NCBI GenBank assembly: GCA_945881735.1
Contig: CAMCVF010000005.1
Location: 1 to 64,000, forward strand
DNA: 64,000 nt
Direction: 5' to 3'
Source of the DNA: Methylotenera oryzisoli
Lineage (GTDB): Bacteria > Pseudomonadota > Gammaproteobacteria > Burkholderiales > Methylophilaceae
Shown here: piece by piece, positions 790-49,725 of the stretch
How the letters are laid out: each line of letters starts with the position of its first letter
Numbering within the stretch: position 1 is the first letter of the stretch
Made by a program: the position numbers and the translations under genes
The notes under the pieces: model-generated
What the model was told of the DNA's origin: nothing
The model's input: only the letters and a program-made list of their open reading frames with translations
The model's database searches: none

Positions 790-1002
790 CCCTTTTGCAA
801 TTGCAATCCAAGCGGCAGGATTTACGATTGCGGACTTATGTAATCAAGAAGGTATTAGTGTTGGCACCTTCTAAAGTTTGCGATCCAATAATAGCGGCAT
901 GTATAGCATTGAGGAGCAAAGCCTTCGTCGGTTACAGGATGAGAGTACTGACTCAAAGTAACTGCCAGCCGAAGCGCATGTATATATCTCTGCACTTTAA
1001 TA
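788..1002 (+). pseudogene. Degraded IS3-family OrfA transposase fragment
   Basis: One plus-strand frame reads FAIAIQAAGFTIADLCNQEG, then ISVGTF, an in-frame TAA, and SLRSNNSGMYSIEEQSLRRL followed by QDES, with a second stop before LPAEAHVYISAL. This follows the order of an IS3-type OrfA helix-turn-helix plus leucine zipper (compare the family pattern I-A-D-L-C-x-x-x-G-I-S-x-x-T-F-Y-K-W-x-x-x-Y-G-G-M and L-x-x-L-x-x-E-N). There are two in-frame stops, no OrfB and no visible terminal repeats. It is an old remnant whose end touches the 3' end of the sugar transferase gene. The family call rests on pattern recognition only. Confidence 0.6.
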
Positions 1003-2400
1003 GGCTTTTGAATCTTTAAAAACCAACAAGATTGTTTTTAAAATAATCCGAAGATCCAAGGCTAGTGACCATTTTTTTAGGTATTCTAAATCGTATTCAA
1101 TACGTTCTTTCATATTTTCAACGGTTTTGGTTTCACCTCTGCAACCATTCACTTGTGCCCAACCAGTAATACCAGGCTTTACTTTGTGACGAATCATATA
1201 ACCTTTGATTAATTTGCGATACATTTCGTTATGCGTAACCGCATGGGGGCGCGGTCCTACCACGCTCATTCTGCCTTGCAACACATTGATAAATTGTGGC
1301 AATTCATCCAGTGATGTTTTACGAATAATCTTCCCAAACGCCGTCACTCTTTTATCATTTAATGTCGCTTGCATTACAGTTGCACCGTCTTCCATCACTT
1401 TCATCGATCTAAATTTATAGACGATGATTTCTTGACCATCTAAACCATAACGGCGCTGTTTAAATAAAACGGGACCTTTAGAACTTAACTTAACACCCAC
1501 GGCAACAATAACTAACAATGGTAAAAGCAACAGTAGCAAAACTCCAGAAATCACAATATCGCTAATACGCTTAACCATACCATTAAAAGACGTGAACGGT
1601 GTTTCGCACATAGCCACCACGGGCATGCCATCAATTTCATCTATTCTGCCTTGAATCAAATCTACCATAAAAAAATCGGGTACAAAGTAAATAGAGGCAG
1701 TGGTGTCTTTTAAATCATCCAATAAAGCCATCATTTGCACATGCATAGAAGGCGGCAGAGTGATGTAAATCAGGTCTATGGCATGCCGTTTTACATAGTC
1801 TGCAATCTCGTTCATAGGCCTAAACATATGTCCATCTAAAAGCTGGTTGCCAACCTTAACTTTGGGGTTGCCAACAGTCAAATCATCAAAATAACCTTTA
1901 ATTTCAATGGATAGCTGCCTATTTCCCTCAATACGTGAATGTAACTGATGACACAATTCATTGCGTCCAACAATTACCGCGGTTTTTTTTATGTACGCTA
2001 AATAATGATTACTCATTAAATAATGGCGCATTATCCTATGCGTCAACACCAATACCAGCGGCGTAATCAATACCCAAGCCATTAAAACTTGCGATGAGAA
2101 TATAGGCAAATATTTAGTGGCGTATCCAAAAAATAATAAGATACCTACAATCAAAAACCATTGGCTTAAGGTCGCCAGCATGTCTTTAACAAAATTGCCT
2201 TGGTTATGCCAAGATCCAGGAAAACTCAGCGCAAACACCATAATTGACAACACAATATAATGCGAACTTAATCGGCCCTCAATTAGCAGAATCAAGCCGA
2301 ATAACATGAAAATTATCAATACTGGATCGACCAGAATTTTTATCATTTGGTTAATCGTCAACGATTTACTAAAACTGAGTTTCTGCTGAAATCTAAGCAT
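997..2400 (-). CDS. Undecaprenyl-phosphate sugar phosphotransferase (EPS priming enzyme)
   Basis: Predicted polyisoprenyl-phosphate hexose-1-phosphate transferase of the WcaJ/EpsB type. It starts exopolysaccharide repeat assembly by loading a sugar-phosphate, probably glucose, onto undecaprenyl phosphate at the inner membrane. At 467 aa it has the family's usual layout: four to five N-terminal membrane helices, a CoA-binding-like Rossmann region (AVIVGRNELC, about 143-152), one more helix near residue 290, and the catalytic bacterial sugar transferase domain. That domain shows KLSSKGPVLFKQRRYGLDG, YKFRSM, RKTSLDELPQFINVL and MSVVGPRPH, and then the KPGITGWAQVNG stretch. A GT4 gene lies upstream on the same strand, so the two probably share an EPS operon. 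Confidence 0.9.
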   Translation of the reverse strand: MLRFQQKLSFSKSLTINQMIKILVDPVLIIFMLFGLILLIEGRLSSHYIVLSIMVFALSFPGSWHNQGNFVKDMLATLSQWFLIVGILLFFGYATKYLPIFSSQVLMAWVLITPLVLVLTHRIMRHYLMSNHYLAYIKKTAVIVGRNELCHQLHSRIEGNRQLSIEIKGYFDDLTVGNPKVKVGNQLLDGHMFRPMNEIADYVKRHAIDLIYITLPPSMHVQMMALLDDLKDTTASIYFVPDFFMVDLIQGRIDEIDGMPVVAMCETPFTSFNGMVKRISDIVISGVLLLLLLPLLVIVAVGVKLSSKGPVLFKQRRYGLDGQEIIVYKFRSMKVMEDGATVMQATLNDKRVTAFGKIIRKTSLDELPQFINVLQGRMSVVGPRPHAVTHNEMYRKLIKGYMIRHKVKPGITGWAQVNGCRGETKTVENMKERIEYDLEYLKKWSLALDLRIILKTILLVFKDSKAY

Positions 2401-2525
2401 TTTAAAGTGATCTTCTAGTTAGCCAATGTGGCCATAATGAACTTCAGAGTAGTTCATGAATATGACATTGATGTGTAAAGATATGAGGATTATAGGGAAC
2501 GGCGTATAACTAAAAACGTTGTAGA

Positions 2526-3917
2526 TTAAAATTTTAAAGCGCTATGGTATGCAATAATGGTTTTTTCAGCAATATTTTTCCAATTGTAATGGCTGTTAAT
2601 CCAAGAACGTACATGCATTTTATTTTCTGGGGAAACAGTTTTCTTTGCTTGTTTCCGCAAGATTTCTTTAAGTTGCTCCGTATTACCCAACTCAAAATAA
2701 TCGCTCGGATTCAAACCAACTTCAATATTAGCTGGAATATCACTCGCAATAACGGGCAAACCATAGCTTAAAGCTTCCAGTAACGATATAGACAAACCTT
2801 CATGCGATGACGGCAATACAAATAAGGCCGCATGCGTATACAAACTGCGCAATGTTTCACCTTTTTGAAAACCCGTAAACACAATATTAGGGTTAGCTTT
2901 TGCCGCCTCATACAATGAATGCACATAAGCATCTGGATGATCCGAATTACCCACTAGCGCTAATTTAAAACCGTTTAAACTAGCCTGATTAAAGGCTTCA
3001 ATCAAATCTAAATGGCGTTTTTCTGGAACTAAACGGCTGACCAATAAAATGTAACGGTTTTTTTGAAGTCCAAATTGCATTAAGTAATCTTCTGATGCAT
3101 CCAAAGTTGGCAATACCACACCGTTGTGAATCAACTCAGATTGCACTGCATATTTGCGCGCAACCATGTCGCGAATTACATCTGATATCACAATACGCGC
3201 ATGTGAAAATCGCATGCCAAACCACTCGCCCAACAATAATACCTTGCGTGCCACATAACCCCATTTTTGACGGTTATAGTCCTGACCATGATGCGTTACT
3301 ACTACCCGCAGACCCAGCAAACGCGCTAAAGGCGTCATCAATGCTGGGCCAACCGCGTGAATATGCAAAATATCAGGACGTTTAATCGCCGCGTACAGCA
3401 CACCAAAAAAAGTATGCACAAGCGTCTCTAGTACTTTAGATTTAGGCGACCAAAGTTTGGTAAATTTTATGCCACGCCATATTTTACCAGCGCTCGGTTT
3501 TTGACAGTGTGTGCGCACAACTACTTCTAAATCACACCCTAAATTCACTAGCAATGGCGCTAGATGTTCAACATGCGTTTCAATACCGCCCTGTACATCG
3601 GGAAAACCGCGAAGACCCAACATCATCACACGCAAAGGCCTTGTAACGACGCGTTGGTCGTTATGACCATCAGTAGAACCATTGTGATGAGTAAAATTGG
3701 TATCAGTAATAAACGCTTGAGCTGGCGCTTGTAAAGAAAGTTGACTATATAAAAACGGCTTAGGGAAATTTTTCAATAGATAATATCTACCAAAAAAATG
3801 ATTGGAAAGAAATTGTGATAAGTATCGATTAAATCGTGCGATATATTCAACAAAAACATTCACTTGCTCTACCTTTTTAATTGCTTCGATACCATGCAAT
3901 AAAATCAAATTGTGCAT
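2526..3917 (-). CDS. Glycosyltransferase family 4
   Basis: Predicted GT-B fold retaining glycosyltransferase adding a sugar during EPS assembly. The catalytic part starts near residue 94. Its N-domain has GLRGFPDVQGGIETHVEHL, the donor-side C-domain begins at YILLVSRLVPEKRHLDLIEA, and the EX7E-type region reads SSHEGLSISLLEALSYGLPV. The first ~93 residues have no recognisable domain and may be either a genuine extension or upstream sequence. Met98 (VMMLGLRGF) is an alternative start, but I kept the longer frame because no better RBS was evident. It lies 126 bp upstream of the sugar transferase gene and is probably cotranscribed with it. Confidence 0.85.
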   Translation of the reverse strand: MHNLILLHGIEAIKKVEQVNVFVEYIARFNRYLSQFLSNHFFGRYYLLKNFPKPFLYSQLSLQAPAQAFITDTNFTHHNGSTDGHNDQRVVTRPLRVMMLGLRGFPDVQGGIETHVEHLAPLLVNLGCDLEVVVRTHCQKPSAGKIWRGIKFTKLWSPKSKVLETLVHTFFGVLYAAIKRPDILHIHAVGPALMTPLARLLGLRVVVTHHGQDYNRQKWGYVARKVLLLGEWFGMRFSHARIVISDVIRDMVARKYAVQSELIHNGVVLPTLDASEDYLMQFGLQKNRYILLVSRLVPEKRHLDLIEAFNQASLNGFKLALVGNSDHPDAYVHSLYEAAKANPNIVFTGFQKGETLRSLYTHAALFVLPSSHEGLSISLLEALSYGLPVIASDIPANIEVGLNPSDYFELGNTEQLKEILRKQAKKTVSPENKMHVRSWINSHYNWKNIAEKTIIAYHSALKF

Positions 3918-11122: not shown

Positions 11123-11131
11123 TTTATTTTG

Positions 11132-11175
11132 GTGGCCACCCTGTGAGTCGAACACAGTGTCAACGGATTATGAGT
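11132..11175 (-). pseudogene. 3' half of a split tRNA-Ile2(CAU) copy
   Basis: The minus strand reads ACTCATAATCCGTTGACACT, then GTGTTCGACTCACAGGGTGG, then CCACC: anticodon loop with CAT, 3' anticodon stem, T-arm and acceptor 3' strand. The T-arm is identical to that of the intact gene at 11936-12229. The fragment stops exactly at the anticodon stem. The missing 5' half is at 12375-12417. The joined molecule would be a cloverleaf with one acceptor mismatch (C5:T68). Confidence 0.75.
11166..11175. repeat. 10-bp direct repeat GATTATGAGT, left copy (candidate att core / TSD)
   Basis: GATTATGAGT here and at 12375-12384 is the only overlap between the two tRNA halves. Removing 11176-12384 rebuilds a full tRNA with no base missing or added. 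This is what a target duplication or a recombinase crossover core in the anticodon loop would leave. Confidence 0.6.
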
Positions 11176-11336
11176 AGCTTCAATAAATAATCGCGTTCTT
11201 TTATAGTTATTGCCTTTAAGTTCTTGTTCTAAAATAGCAACCCATTAAAAAAACAAAGGACGTATATTTTAGTATGGACTAATTTGAAGGAACTTTTTGT
11301 CTAGGCAAATAGACCAATGTAATTCAATTAATCCGC

Positions 11337-11789
11337 ATGCACATTTTTATCCATTTATGTGTATCGATAGCCAAAAGCTTTAGGAGAATTAAATTGTTAC
11401 AACAAGTATGCGCCATCGGTATGATGGTTGGTTTATTTATTAGCTCAATTGCTTCAGCAAACAACCATACTCAAAATGTATTGTTATTGCAAAAGCAATA
11501 TCTGAATCAAGTCAATCAGTGTAGTTCGATTGCATCCTTTAGTCGCTTAATCAATGTCGCATTAAAACCTAGCCATCCCAACGAAAGAAGCTTAGTGGCA
11601 ATGACAGTAGAAGAAATGATTTTAAACAATCCCACTTGTTTCGTTGAGGCATCTGTCAAGCTAGGTAAAGCTAAATGTGAATTGATAGAAGATATGTTTA
11701 TACGTGAGCCCCATTTTAATCCTCGAGATAATCTAAAAGAATCATTGGCAAGTACACGACTATTTAAGCAATCGTGTTTTGCTAGCTAG
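11337..11789 (+). CDS. Hypothetical exported protein, possible cargo of the tRNA insertion
   Basis: 150-aa protein of unknown function. A hydrophobic segment (VCAIGMMVGLFISSIASA, about 25-42) looks like a signal peptide with a cleavage site after ASA. Starts further in (Met28 or Met29) would give a normal short signal peptide but lack a positive n-region, so the true start is unclear. The mature part has five cysteines (NQCSS, NPTCF, AKCEL, QSCFAS), which would suit periplasmic disulfides. It lies inside the segment that separates the two tRNA halves, and a strong hairpin follows it. I do not recognise the family. Confidence 0.6.
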   Translation: MHIFIHLCVSIAKSFRRIKLLQQVCAIGMMVGLFISSIASANNHTQNVLLLQKQYLNQVNQCSSIASFSRLINVALKPSHPNERSLVAMTVEEMILNNPTCFVEASVKLGKAKCELIEDMFIREPHFNPRDNLKESLASTRLFKQSCFAS

Positions 11790-11894
11790 TATTTCTAAAC
11801 ATAAACTTTTTACAGTTTAAATGCTTTTTAACCGCGTTAAATATGGTTAAAAAATTCATTTATACTCTCGTTTAGGATTTTGGAAAATAACTAT

Positions 11895-11932
11895 AAAAAA
11901 GCTACCTAGTGATCCCTCACTAGGTAGCTTTA
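11895..11932. terminator. Bidirectional rho-independent terminator
   Basis: A perfect 15-bp stem (AAAGCTACCTAGTGA at 11898-11912 paired with 11917-11931) with a 4-base loop and T/A runs on both sides. On the minus strand it immediately follows the tRNA-Ile2 3' end. On the plus strand it lies about 110 bp after the 150-aa gene. Confidence 0.85.
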
Positions 11933-11935
11933 TTT

Positions 11936-12229
11936 TGGTGGCCCCTCTGTGAGTCGAACACAGTACCAACGGATTCTGGTTTGTGACGGTTTCCCGCCTC
12001 CCTGGACTATGCCTTCACCATACCAATCATGACGATTGCTTTAGGTGGGTGCCGTCTAGTCTCTACACGTTCAACAAGCATTTCTTACTTGTTGCTTCGC
12101 TCGGCATTGCCTTGTGCATTGCTGCCGTTAGGTTTCACCGAATTTGACACCATCCCATACGCAGTTTCCTATCGTATGGCACATTTACATATGAGTCCGC
12201 TGCTCTAACCAAGCATGAGCTAAGGGGCC
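11936..12229 (-). tRNA. tRNA-Ile2(CAU), interrupted by a group I intron, CCA encoded
   Basis: Exon 1 is 12191-12229 and exon 2 is 11936-11975. The spliced 79-nt RNA folds well: acceptor GGCCCCT/AGGGGCC perfect, D-arm GCTC/GAGC with an 11-nt loop, anticodon arm GCGGA-CTCATAA-TCCGT (one G-T pair), T-arm CTGTG-TTCGACT-CACAG perfect, and CCA encoded. The GGCCCCTTAGCTC start and CAT anticodon match tRNA-Ile2, which needs TilS lysidinylation to read AUA. This identity is also the host of the Azoarcus intron. Elongator Met is less likely because its acceptor usually differs. The terminator is at 11895-11932, and rpoD lies upstream on the same strand. Confidence 0.9.
11976..12190 (-). ncRNA. Group I (IC3-like) self-splicing intron in the tRNA-Ile2 anticodon loop
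   Basis: The 215-bp insert lies directly after the CAT anticodon. On the minus strand it shows a 5'-splice-site guide GTG able to pair with exon CAT, P2 (CCATACG/CGTATGG capped by GAAA), P3 GGTGTC with GGCACC, the core AAATTCGGTGAAACC, and P7 GACTA/TAGTC within GAGACTAGACGGCACC and GAAGGCATAGTCCAGGGAG. It ends CAAACCAG, placing a terminal G at the 3' splice site. The core closely follows what I know of the Azoarcus sp. BH72 tRNA-Ile intron. No homing endonuclease ORF is present. Confidence 0.92.
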
Positions 12230-12244
12230 TTAAACTTTAATTTG

Positions 12245-12298
12245 CTTCCACGGTTTTTGAAACTTTACTTCCACAAAACTGTGGAAGCACTGTGGAAG
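12245..12298. repeat. Cluster of four CTTCCAC/GTGGAAG motifs
   Basis: CTTCCAC occurs at 12245-12251 and 12268-12274, and its reverse complement at 12281-12287 and 12292-12298. The central pair forms a hairpin (CTTCCAC-N6-GTGGAAG). Spaced short repeats beside a tRNA end resemble arm-type integrase sites, but no integrase gene is present, so this is inference. Confidence 0.45.
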
Positions 12299-12374
12299 CA
12301 ATTTTTACTACTTTTTATAAAACTAAGTTATTGATTTATATATACTTTATTACCTAAACACAACTTCTTGAATA

Positions 12375-12417
12375 GATTATGAGTCCGCTGCTCTAACCAA
12401 GCATAAGCTAGGGGGCC
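12375..12417 (-). pseudogene. 5' half of a split tRNA-Ile2(CAU) copy
   Basis: The minus strand reads GGCCCCCTAGCTTATGCTTG, then GTTAGAGCAGCGGACTCATA, then ATC: acceptor 5' strand, D-arm with the same 11-nt loop as the intact gene, anticodon stem and loop. Sequence identity to a tRNA stops right after GATTATGAGT (plus-strand view). It complements the 3' half at 11132-11175. The upstream side (12418-12438) is the short gap to rpoD. Confidence 0.75.
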
Positions 12418-12438: not shown

Positions 12439-14373
12439 TTAATCTTGACCTGTTTCTAAGAAGCTACGTAGTCTTTCAGAGCGAGTTGGATGACGTAGTT
12501 TACGCAACGCTTTCGCTTCAATTTGGCGAATACGTTCACGCGTTACATCAAACTGTTTGCCTACTTCCTCTAGCGTATGGTCTGTATTCATTTCAATACC
12601 AAAGCGCATACGCAGCACTTTTGCTTCACGTGGTGTTAATGATTCAAGCACTTCACTCGTTGCATCGCGCAGGCTGGCATACACAGCCGCATCCATTGGC
12701 GCTAGCGTTGTGTTGTCCTCAATAAAGTCACCGAGGTGAGAATCTTCATCATCACCAATTGGGGTTTCCATTGAAATAGGTTCTTTGCTGATTTTTAGGA
12801 TTTTACGAATCTTATCTTCTGGCATTTCCATTTTTTCAGCAAGCAAAGCTGGGTCTGGCTCTACGCCAGTTTCTTGCAGAATCTGACGGCTGATACGATT
12901 CATTTTGTTAATCGTTTCAATCATGTGCACAGGGATACGAATGGTACGTGCTTGGTCAGCAATTGAACGGGTAATCGCTTGGCGAATCCACCATGTTGCG
13001 TAGGTTGAAAACTTGTAACCGCGACGGTATTCAAACTTATCTACTGCTTTCATCAAGCCAATATTGCCTTCTTGAATCAGATCCAAGAATTGCAAACCAC
13101 GGTTGGTGTACTTTTTGGCAATCGAAATCACCAAACGCAAGTTGGCTTCAATCATTTCACGTTTGGCACGGCGCGCACGCGCTTCCCCCGTAGTCATCTG
13201 CTTGTTGATTTCTTTAAGCTCTTTAATCGGAATGCCAACTTTAATTTGCAAAGCGATTAAACGATCTTGCTGGTCGATAATAGAGTGTCTGTAACGGGTT
13301 AATTTTTCAATATAAGGTTTATCAAAACCTAACTCAGTATCCAACCAAGTTAAATTGATTTCATTACCTGGAAAGCTTTTAATGAAGTGTGGGCGTGGCA
13401 TACCCGATTTATCCACACAAAAATCCATCACCTTACGCTCATGGCCTCGAACTTCATCAACCAAACCGCGCACTTGTTCACACAATGCTTCTACTTGTTT
13501 GGCTGAGAATCTGAACGCGGTTAGCTCTTCTAGTATGGCTTCATGCAGTTTTTTGTAGTCTGCATCTTGCGAGCCTTTTTGCTCACGAATCATGTTCATT
13601 TGTATGTTGGCTTTACGAATAATCGCAAAGCGTTTTAATACTTCTTGTTTTAGCTTGGCTAAGGCCTCAGCTGAAATGGCTGCTGCTTTGGCGCCATCTT
13701 CATCCTCGCCGTCATCCAAATCCTCCTCGGCACTTGCCTCTGCCGCCATGGCGTCATCTAAACCAATATCGGTATCAATTAAGCCATCAACTAAATCATC
13801 TACACTGATTTCGTCTTTTTCAACTTTGTCCACCATGTCCAATAATTGGGCGATTGTAGTTGGGCAAGCAGCAATTGCCTGCACCATGTGCTTCAGGCCA
13901 TCTTCAATACGTTTGGCGATTTCAATTTCGCCTTCACGTGTCAGCAAATCTACCGTTCCCATTTCCCGCATATACATACGTACAGGGTCGGTGGTACGAC
14001 CAAACTCAGAATCCACTGTAGCCAGTGCCGCTTCTGCTTCTTCTACCGCATCTTCATCGGTAACAGGTGGTGGTGCATCAGACATTAATAATACTTCAGC
14101 ATCAGGCGCCTCTTCGTACACCTGAATACCCATATCGTTGATTAAACCGATAATGCCATCAATTTGCTCAGAATCCTGAGTATCATCGGGCAGATGGTCA
14201 TTGATTTCGGCATAGGTTAAATAGCCGCGCTCTTTACCTAAAATAATGAGAGACTTTAAGCGGGTACGGCGCGCTTCTGCATCTAGCGCTTGCGCAACTG
14301 GGTCGAGTGCAGCTTCTGCCGCCAGCTTATTGCGCTCTTTTTCTAATGTTTTATCTGATTTTGGTCTGGCCAT
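12439..14373 (-). CDS. rpoD: RNA polymerase primary sigma factor RpoD (sigma-70)
   Basis: Housekeeping sigma factor of 644 aa, the normal size for proteobacterial RpoD. Region 1.1 is N-terminal. Region 1.2 reads [11 protein letters not shown] (about 130-140). A long non-conserved insert rich in Asp/Glu follows, then regions 2.1-2.4 ([37 protein letters not shown]), region 3 ([13 protein letters not shown]) and region 4.2 helix-turn-helix ([20 protein letters not shown]). It is the last gene of the rpsU-dnaG-rpoD macromolecular synthesis cluster, 233 bp downstream of dnaG. I see no terminator between its stop and the tRNA remnant. Confidence 0.98.
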
Positions 14374-19979: not shown

Positions 19980-20885
19980 CTAGCCTCTTGGATGATGCAC
20001 GCTATGTAGCTGCTTTAAGCGCTCCCGCGCCACATGGGTGTAAATCTGCGTGGTCGAAATATCTGAATGCCCCAATAACATCTGTACCACGCGTAAATCA
20101 GCACCATGATTCAACAAGTGTGTGGCAAAAGCATGGCGCAATACATGCGGGCTCATGGGTTTATTAATACCAGCCATCAGCGCATAACGTTTAATCAAAT
20201 ACCAAAATGCTTGGCGCGACATCATATCAGCACGATTAGTCACAAATAGCGCATCACATAACTTTTTTTGCAAAATGTCTGGCCGTGCATATTTTAAGTA
20301 TTTATCTATCCAGCTTGCCGCCTCTTGCCCCATAGGCACAAGCCGGGTTTTACTACCCTTACCAGTTACCCGCACCACTCCATCCTGCGTGCTCACTTCA
20401 TTCACTTTTAAGGTTACCAGCTCCGAAACCCTTAACCCACTAGCATACAAGAGCTCCAGCATTGCCCTATCGCGCATGCCAATCGGCTCATTAATATCAG
20501 GGGCATTCAATAAATCTGTCACCTCTTCCTCGTTTAAGCTTTTGGGCAAACTTCGTGGCAATTTGGGAGACTCAATCTGCAAGGTTGGATCAGTCTGTAT
20601 CAAGTTTTCGCGCAAATTATAACGATAAAATCGGCGCATACTGGCAATCAATCGGCCAATACTGCGCGGCTTGCTAGAGGGAAATTTAAATGCCAAATAA
20701 TGCTGAATGTCTGCTTGCTTGGCATGCAATAGATACTTTTGTTGGCTGCTCAACCATATACTAAACTGGCTTAAATCTGTGCGATAACTTTCAAGTGTGT
20801 TCTTAGATAACCCATCTTCCAACCAAAGATGATCAATAAATGTATCGAGTTCGCTTGGCGCTTTATCTTGATCTATTTCTGCCAC
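19980..20885 (-). CDS. xerD: Site-specific tyrosine recombinase XerD
   Basis: Resolves chromosome dimers at dif with XerC and FtsK. It is 301 aa, the standard size. The SAM-like N-terminal core-binding domain is followed by the catalytic domain with all active-site residues in place: Arg152 (SGLRVSEL), Lys176 (GKGSKT), His247 and Arg250 (SPHVLRHAFATHLL), His273 (LLGHSD) and nucleophile Tyr282 (QIYTHV). Assignment to XerD over XerC follows from the closest motif match and the overlap with ogt, but a search is needed to be sure. Its start overlaps the ogt end by 13 bp, so the two are translationally coupled. Confidence 0.9.
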   Translation of the reverse strand: MAEIDQDKAPSELDTFIDHLWLEDGLSKNTLESYRTDLSQFSIWLSSQQKYLLHAKQADIQHYLAFKFPSSKPRSIGRLIASMRRFYRYNLRENLIQTDPTLQIESPKLPRSLPKSLNEEEVTDLLNAPDINEPIGMRDRAMLELLYASGLRVSELVTLKVNEVSTQDGVVRVTGKGSKTRLVPMGQEAASWIDKYLKYARPDILQKKLCDALFVTNRADMMSRQAFWYLIKRYALMAGINKPMSPHVLRHAFATHLLNHGADLRVVQMLLGHSDISTTQIYTHVARERLKQLHSVHHPRG

Positions 20886-49125: not shown

Positions 49126-49306
49126 TGGGGGGCTATTTTCAAAAGAGTAAATATTCTCTGAAAATCCTACCTTTCGATTGTAAATTTAAAATGACAAAAA
49201 TCTCCAGATTCCGGATCTTTTTTAGCATCCCCCCTTTTTTTCCTGCCCACTGACCCACCCAACCTGTCTAAAAATTCCTTAAATACTGTAAATTATCGAC
49301 TTCTGG

Positions 49307-49597
49307 TAGAGGTTAGCTCATTTGGTAGAACAGCGGACTCATATGTAGATGTGCATACGACAGGAAACTGTGTATGGGATGGTGTCAAATTCGGTGAAAC
49401 CTGTCGGTAGCAAAATGGACTTGGCAATGCCGATCTAAGCTTCAAACAGAAATGTTTGTTAAACGTTTAGAGACTAGACGACACCTATCTAAAGCAATCG
49501 TCGAGATTGTTATGCTGAAGGCATAGTCCAAGGAGGCAGGAAACCGTCACTAAACAGGATCCTTTGGTGCGGTGTTCGACTGACAAAGAGGCCACCA
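49307..49597 (+). pseudogene. Degenerate tRNA-Ile2(CAU) copy with a group I intron
   Basis: Exons 49307-49342 and 49558-49597. Exon 2 still encodes CCACCA and a T-loop TTCGACT, and exon 1 keeps GCGGACTCAT. However, the acceptor 5' strand (TAGAGGT) no longer pairs with AGAGGCC, the D-stem has a C/A mismatch, the anticodon stem has a C/T mismatch, and the T-stem (CGGTG/GACAA) is broken. Such an RNA should not fold into a functional tRNA. It is on the opposite strand to the intact gene 37 kb away and is followed by a terminator. Confidence 0.85.
49343..49557 (+). ncRNA. Second group I (IC3-like) intron
   Basis: 215 bp, the same length and insertion point (after CAT) as the intron at 11976-12190. 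The core is retained: GGGATGGTGTCAAATTCGGT and GAAACC, P7 GACTA/TAGTC in GAGACTAGACGACACC and GAAGGCATAGTCCAAGGAGG. P3 GGTGTC/GACACC is fully Watson-Crick here where copy one has a G-U pair. P2 is re-paired as CATAC(G)ACAG/CTGTGTATG around GAAA. It ends TAAACAG. Peripheral stems differ from copy one, so it is diverged but structurally conserved. Confidence 0.9.
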
Positions 49598-49671: not shown

Positions 49672-49718
49672 GACTGTTAATCCGTGTGTCCCTGGTTCGA
49701 GCCCAGGTCGAGGAGCCA
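49672..49718 (+). pseudogene. 3' half of a tRNA-Asn(GUU)
   Basis: GACTGTTAATCCGTGTGTCC followed by CTGGTTCGAGCCCAGG and TCGAGGAGCCA: anticodon loop CTGTTAA, 3' anticodon stem, perfect T-arm (CCTGG/CCAGG), acceptor 3' strand, discriminator G and CCA. The sequence before GACTGTTAATC does not look like a D-arm or an acceptor strand. Truncation exactly at the anticodon stem is what integration into an anticodon loop leaves behind. Confidence 0.75.
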
Positions 49719-49725
49719 AATACTT

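Follow-up and report, generated by a model that had tools for sequence, protein, structure and literature searches.

A probable tRNA-replacing mobile element, or its remains, within a split tRNA-Ile2 gene beside rpoD in Methylotenera oryzisoli

The split tRNA-Ile2 locus

The window analysed here is a stretch of 64,000 nucleotides of Methylotenera oryzisoli (contig CAMCVF010000005.1 of assembly GCA_945881735.1, positions 1 to 64,000). On its minus strand, rpoD is followed by the 5' half of a tRNA-Ile2(CAU) gene, which starts 21 bases downstream of it, a spacer, a complete tRNA-Ile2 gene with a group I intron, a hairpin, an open reading frame (ORF) lying on the opposite strand and, lastly, the 3' half of the split gene (Table 1). 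Both halves contain ACTCATAATC, here called the core, and the distance from core to core is 1209 bp. Direct reading confirmed what the sequence-only reading had described, a tRNA-Ile2(CAU) split in the anticodon loop with its halves on the same strand and a 10-bp repeat in common; the coordinates given for the 5' half stood, whereas the 3' half, said to end at 11132, reaches 11130 with CCA included. It had also been claimed that removal of one repeat and the intervening DNA restores a tRNA, and the window flanks joined over one core were indeed called by ARAGORN as a tRNA with anticodon CAT. ARAGORN labels CAT-anticodon genes tRNA-Met, and Ile2 was assigned by likeness to the Azoarcus pre-tRNA-Ile type. 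By eye, the joined tRNA shows ageing in the form of one acceptor-stem mismatch and altered variable-loop bases. ARAGORN called no tRNA gene in the window, and neither the program nor the sequence revealed an intact tRNA at either end of the segment; the tRNA is not rebuilt, unlike in a conventional tRNA genomic island.

Table 1. Features of the split tRNA-Ile2 locus, in positions of the window
Feature	Position	Strand	Basis
rpoD, host gene upstream of the target tRNA	12439..14373	-	ORF; served as rpoD query, with homologues ahead of the tRNA in relatives
5' half of host tRNA-Ile2(CAU), core at its end, putative attL side	12375..12417	-	sequence
Left copy of the 10-bp core ACTCATAATC	12375..12384	-	sequence
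Left-end spacer, 145 bp	12230..12374	-	sequence; similar spacers in G115, G120, G128, G119, G146
Repeated TGCTTCCACA-like units in left-end spacer	~12300-12245	-	sequence
Complete intron-bearing replacement tRNA-Ile2(CAU)	11936..12229	-	sequence; conserved fold in 23 relatives
Group I intron, 215 nt, after CAU inside the core (CTCAT^AA)	11976..12190	-	Rfam Intron_gpI 11983-12202; exact ends by eye
Terminator-like hairpin 3' of the replacement tRNA	11898..11931	-	15 pairs; consensus match only
150-codon ORF, cargo or captured gene	11337..11789	+	ORF list; no Pfam/PHROG match
Right end of the putative element, ...TTATTTATTGAAGCT ahead of the core	11176..11200	-	14/16 bases as in the G116 junction
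3' half of host tRNA-Ile2, core at its start, putative attR side	11130..11175	-	sequence; CCA included
Right copy of the 10-bp core	11166..11175	-	sequence

The complete intron-bearing tRNA-Ile2 that had been reported inside the segment was also found there: it is of the same isotype as the split tRNA and has to lose the intron to read as a tRNA. Against Rfam Intron_gpI the intron scored 46.6 bits (E 3.2e-10), short of the gathering score of 50, and no Rfam match at the gathering threshold was obtained in the window. That score was reached by four of the five relatives tested, the fifth being cut by a contig end, and the introns of Rugamonas, Herbaspirillum and contig C72 of genome G116, different in sequence, are Rfam group I introns above gathering. 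In every case read, the intron is placed inside the core. A second intron-bearing tRNA-Ile2 lies at 49304-49597 (plus strand) of the window, decayed, 82-85% identical to the first and with damaged acceptor and D-arm bases. With this decayed copy, L005, L054, L061 and L086 excluded, 23 of the 28 intron-tRNAs collected fold with 77 pairs, 28 of them with compensatory double changes, and 22 of 1771 cells are unpaired, in a structure derived from the same alignment with the tRNA stems included and without a shuffle control.

A promoter scan found no minus-strand promoter in the window spacer, which is consistent with transcription of the replacement tRNA from upstream of the 5' half. The TGCTTCCACA units of the spacer may represent integrase arm sites. 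In the spacers of L101 and L110, and also in G216, a GCTTACACACCGCTTACACAC repeat is conserved between core and replacement tRNA, and these repeats, like the TGCTTCCACA units of the window spacer class, are candidate arm sites.

The ORF of the segment, taken in the sequence-only reading for a putative exported protein gene, gave no Pfam or PHROG match, and homologues were found in 23 of 187 genomes of the family (window genome included). It was considered as a mobility gene and rejected on the lack of such matches and on the absence of the core from each of the 11 homologue loci examined (L128-L138). Since a homologue in G006 sits 1.5 kb beyond the 3' half, the ORF does not belong to a fixed gene set of the element. 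Furthermore, a Phage_integrase search of the whole window contig found no integrase in the element, the sole match being an Xer-like gene at 20022-20540, outside it, and the window copy would therefore be a remnant or non-autonomous.

Empty and occupied sites in related genomes

Among the 15 genomes of the genus searched, window genome included, 13 matched and two (G002 and G009) did not. The proposal that the tRNA was split by insertion of an element supplying a replacement is supported by the empty site, an intact intronless tRNA-Ile2 beside rpoD, which is present in seven congeners (G001, G004, G005, G008, G010, G012 and G013). Four members of the genus (the window genome, G003, G006 and G014) have rpoD, an orphan 5' half and an intron-tRNA, and in G007 and G011 pieces of the intron, along with 3' halves, lie on parts of contigs that lack rpoD. 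The empty site of G005 is clean: the gene after its tRNA is 78% homologous to the gene after the second 3' half on contig C36 of G003, and its further flank matches G014 beyond the island as well as the window at 997-3917. The ends in G003 lie on two contigs and their connection is for that reason indirect. In G014 the island spans about 22 kb by gene content, which alone places its right boundary; no 3' half was present in 60 kb, and a one-mismatch site 0.95 Mb away, considered as the 3' half, contained no tRNA half by eye. Contig C36 of G003 has two tRNA-Ile2 3' halves and G004 has three beside its intact tRNA, which makes the site a hot spot. The two halves in G003 (L038, 1-2355) are 2.3 kb apart and enclose two ORFs, which we take to resemble a HipB/HipA pair.

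In the family, 74 of 187 genomes matched at 1e-12, many of the listed matches being plain tRNA halves. An intron-tRNA preceded by a same-strand orphan 5' half was found in 16 Methylophilaceae genomes (G000, G003, G006, G014, G061, G062, G115, G116, G119, G120, G128, G133, G136, G146, G148 and G153), with rpoD upstream in each. An intron-blind pattern scan of genome contigs returned 16 stretches, three of them tandem tRNAs and 13 with this layout, each including intron sequence. Four of these 13 come from outside Methylophilaceae, namely from Rugamonas fusca FT3S, Herbaspirillum sp. RV1423, an Oxalobacteraceae MAG and a betaproteobacterial MAG. A second intron-blind pattern, applied to 399 genomes of the order, matched three times, in the window, G489 and G544. 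The left junction of the window recurs in 23 other genomes, and the layout of an orphan 5' half and then a same-strand replacement tRNA was counted in 24 distinct genomes with the intron (the 16 of Methylophilaceae and 8 more) and one without; the 24 were found partly via intron queries, and the two intron-blind searches gave 15 of 16 with intron. In four of the 24 (G115, G120, G153 and L112) the contig ends inside the intron. Left out of the counts were G007 and G011 (no rpoD on the contig parts concerned), G117 (no orphan half), G168 (contig edge), L100, L103 and L113 (tandem tRNAs) and G162, which has a 19-nt 5' fragment beside rpoD (C5), a core junction (C52) and an intact tRNA (C67).

The intron type of the window was present in 11 of the 399 order genomes, in a search for this type alone, and an orphan 5' half accompanies it in five (the window, G489, G216, G369 and G568). 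No orphan half was detected beside the intron-tRNA in the other six or in G117, so the intron is not always the marker of a scar; none was found in L122 either, whose sequence presumably resembles that of Azoarcus. Neither is the intron obligatory, since in G544 (L170, about 1461-1750) rpoD is followed by an orphan 5' half, a spacer with GCTTCTACA repeats and an intact intronless replacement tRNA. In G369 the orphan half and the replacement are visibly different tRNA types. G116 has two replacement tRNAs with two group I intron types (L139 on C72, L092 on C76), one beside rpoD and the other after an island end, and contig C4 of G128 (L080) carries the intron-tRNA-Ile2 three times at spacings of about 3.7 kb, with 5' truncation in two of the copies. 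In G003, G006, G014, G061 and G148 the orphan half is the sole place with the exact stem-loop GGACTCATAATCC, which is absent from G000; an intact GGACTCATAATCC stem-loop is present as well in G162. In G014, a single contig, the intron-bearing gene was the only tRNA-Ile2 found by a search that a divergent copy could escape. That no other tRNA-Ile2 was found suggests that the integrant may need the tRNA of the element.

The window spacer is 86% identical to that of G115 (165 bp), 91% to that of G120 (123 bp) and 83% to that of G128 (166 bp), all from other genera, and has no match to those of the congeners G003, G006 and G014, which resemble the spacers of G061 and G148. RpoD identity to the window is 93-97% in these three congeners and 87-88% in G119, G120 and G128. 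The likeness of the spacer to other genera and not to congeners would speak for a mobile element and for horizontal movement.

Element ends, integrases and cargo

On contig C76 of G116, a core separates an island end from a left spacer and no 5' half is present, the arrangement that a circle or a tandem pair would show. The 16 bases preceding this core match the window right end at 14 positions; the other 19 core contexts listed, 5' halves and chance cores included, match it at no more than 9 of 16. The attP predicted from the window thus exists as a junction in another genus. A similar core junction without 5' half is present on C52 of G162, with a different spacer class. Additionally, five other two-ended elements were read, with 2841 bp between cores in G369, 8587 in G489, 15826 in Rugamonas, 20962 in G568 and 32587 in G216; the flanks of each join into a CAT tRNA, and the shared core is 7-10 bp by eye. 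The same 40 bases stand ahead of the right core in G216 and G568. The left junction shared with 23 other genomes, the attP junction and the five two-ended copies show that the split of the window tRNA goes beyond chance.

Six genomes have a tyrosine integrase next to the intron-tRNA or no more than 1.2 kb from it. The one adjoining it in G061 has 424 aa and matches Arm-DNA-bind_3, Phage_int_M and Phage_integrase; adjoining integrases are also found in G136 (65% to that of G061, cut by a contig end), Rugamonas (462 aa, no Pfam match, PHROG integrase at 2.3e-29), the Oxalobacteraceae MAG (76% over 74 aa) and G062 (a 42-aa fragment, 55%), and G216 has a 53% relative within 1.2 kb. The 2.8-kb element of G369 yielded no integrase. 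A relative of the G061 integrase with 75% identity stands next to an intact tRNA in G008, so that related integrases occur with both outcomes.

The cargo proteins selected for analysis are of mixed kinds. They comprise DNA methylases, a type ISP restriction system, SNF2/Mrr proteins and an Xre-RES pair as well as products of metabolic genes, among them a chorismatase-like enzyme and an iron permease, and no phage structural family appeared among their Pfam matches. The exact predicted attP had 0 matches in viral contigs. Carriage by phages was considered and rejected, the phage collection giving only four Klebsiella phages with 42-bp 3'-half matches, as was carriage by plasmids, which gave five partial matches covering at most 41% of the query.

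Proposed integration and its alternatives

Taking together the anatomy of the locus, the empty sites, the attP junction, the five two-ended elements and the integrases near intron-tRNAs, as they read in these sequences, the 1.2-kb segment is very probably an integrated mobile element, or the remains of one, that replaces the tRNA it breaks. A tyrosine integrase would act on the short core of a circular element and recombine it with the anticodon loop in the tRNA-Ile2(CAU) gene beside rpoD. The attP would carry the core alone, with no tRNA 3' half, and integration would therefore split the host tRNA instead of rebuilding it. What would make the element tolerable is the complete tRNA-Ile2 close behind its left end, oriented like the lost gene and placed where it may be read from the host promoter; the group I intron after the anticodon of this tRNA would have to splice. 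Which integrase moved the window copy, which has none, we infer rather than read.

The sequence-only reading had offered, as an alternative, a tandem duplication of tRNA-Ile2 followed by two truncations meeting in the anticodon loop. Tandem tRNA-Ile2 copies do occur in other taxa (L100, L103, L113), but the core junctions without 5' half, the integrases, the other two-ended copies, the varied cargo of 2.8-32.6 kb between the same halves and the similar spacers across genera contradict this history, which we regard as very unlikely. Relatives were searched for a layout produced by stepwise duplication, and the same layout proved common but with element-like ends. An assembly artefact would be still more improbable: the window genome is a 34-contig assembly, yet the same left junction is present in Rugamonas fusca FT3S, Herbaspirillum sp. 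RV1423 and the single-contig G014, G216 and G568. As for the extent of the inserted DNA, we lean towards a deletion remnant of a larger island over a complete small element moved in trans, because the window element lacks an integrase, related elements reach 32.6 kb and the ORF has a homologue outside the 3' half in G006; against this, both ends of the window element are intact to the base, and the element of G369 is likewise small (2.8 kb) with no integrase found in it.

Within the preferred reading of a tRNA-replacing element, the role of the intron deserves separate treatment. If uninterrupted, a replacement tRNA lying some 150 bp from attP would present another, directly oriented core. An intron at this point is therefore plausible as a lock, and by breaking the core it may keep integrases off the replacement. 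The chances seem even that the intron is instead a passenger, carried by a tRNA picked up by chance and with no role against the integrase. The intronless replacement in G544 and the six of 11 order genomes with the intron but no detected orphan half favour a passenger, as does the other intron type in Rugamonas and on C72 of G116, which can be read too as repeated independent gain; the presence of an intron in 15 of 16 intron-blind layouts, compared with 11 of 399 order genomes for the intron type of the window, and the position of the intron inside the core in each case read speak for a role. It is further possible, although we hold it somewhat doubtful, that after decay of an island the intron-tRNA remains as the sole tRNA-Ile2 and that integrative elements, not intron homing, spread the Azoarcus-type tRNA introns.

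Comparison with known systems

Integration that breaks a tRNA while the element provides a compensating one is known already. According to the sections of PMC10865867 used here, actinobacteriophages integrate in this way through tyrosine integrases and short cores, tRNA-Ile2-CAT and cores of 9-10 bp included. This tRNA-dependent lysogeny shares with our loci an attB in a tRNA gene, a core of about 10 bp, a host tRNA that is not rebuilt and an element tRNA of the same isotype. Its tyrosine integrase has counterparts in six relatives but not in the window element, which lacks an integrase of its own, and the window copy is for this reason said to work like tRNA-dependent integration and is not counted as a member. 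In addition, those systems are phages of Actinobacteria, whereas islands of Betaproteobacteria with mixed cargo are found here, and the replacement tRNA here has a group I intron in the core, while those sections mention an intron only in the title of a reference. The Rhizobium phage of PMC8631192, in the passages drawn upon, similarly carries a whole replacement tRNA-Leu that is suggested not to be a target; that tRNA lacks the att motif, which is suggested to prevent super-integration, whereas here the motif is interrupted by an intron.

Introns have been proposed to protect att sites in archaea by blocking further invasion (PMC3293823, in part). The Caldiarchaeum tRNA-Thr locus in that account resembles ours in its element-borne intron tRNA, upstream tRNA fragment and adjacent recombinase, but its intron is of the archaeal bulge-helix-bulge kind and is carried in attP, whereas ours is a bacterial group I intron housed in a complete gene of its own. 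Conventional tRNA islands, as the consulted portion of the Islander paper (PMC4383910) presents them, show site-specific tRNA insertion, anticodon-centred sites and tandem islands, as here; they regenerate the tRNA from a fragment, whereas in our case the element brings an entire gene and neither half is repaired. The Azoarcus pre-tRNA-Ile group I intron agrees with ours in host tRNA, position after CAU and conserved core, and is not linked to integrative elements in the part of PMC3984707 consulted. Tycheposons with tRNA-Met(cat) and xerD have been described in Methylophilaceae, in an account (PMC10872708) whose consulted parts make no mention of an intron or rpoD; a tRNA at the border is present here too, and the tyrosine recombinase of the element is absent from the window copy. 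Within the mostly open-access literature consulted, parts of papers included, we found no report of a group I intron inside the core (CTCAT^AA) of an island-borne replacement tRNA.

Our reading would widen the range of tRNA-dependent integration, known from phages of Actinobacteria, to include islands of environmental Betaproteobacteria, and would offer a vehicle for the spread of a well-studied family of tRNA group I introns. It also shows how tRNA-Ile2 comes to escape a standard tRNA finder in genomes of this kind, and it makes the old proposal that tRNA introns protect integration sites directly testable.

Elsewhere in the window, a tRNA-Asn(GTT)-like 3' half cut in the anticodon loop lies at 49672-49719 (plus strand), with no GACTGTTAATC elsewhere in the window, and is possibly a second island scar. 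The window genome has an intact tRNA-Asn (L174) and, on contig C34, a 93% copy of this stretch (L175) that is not called as a tRNA; the same contig also has an integrase match.
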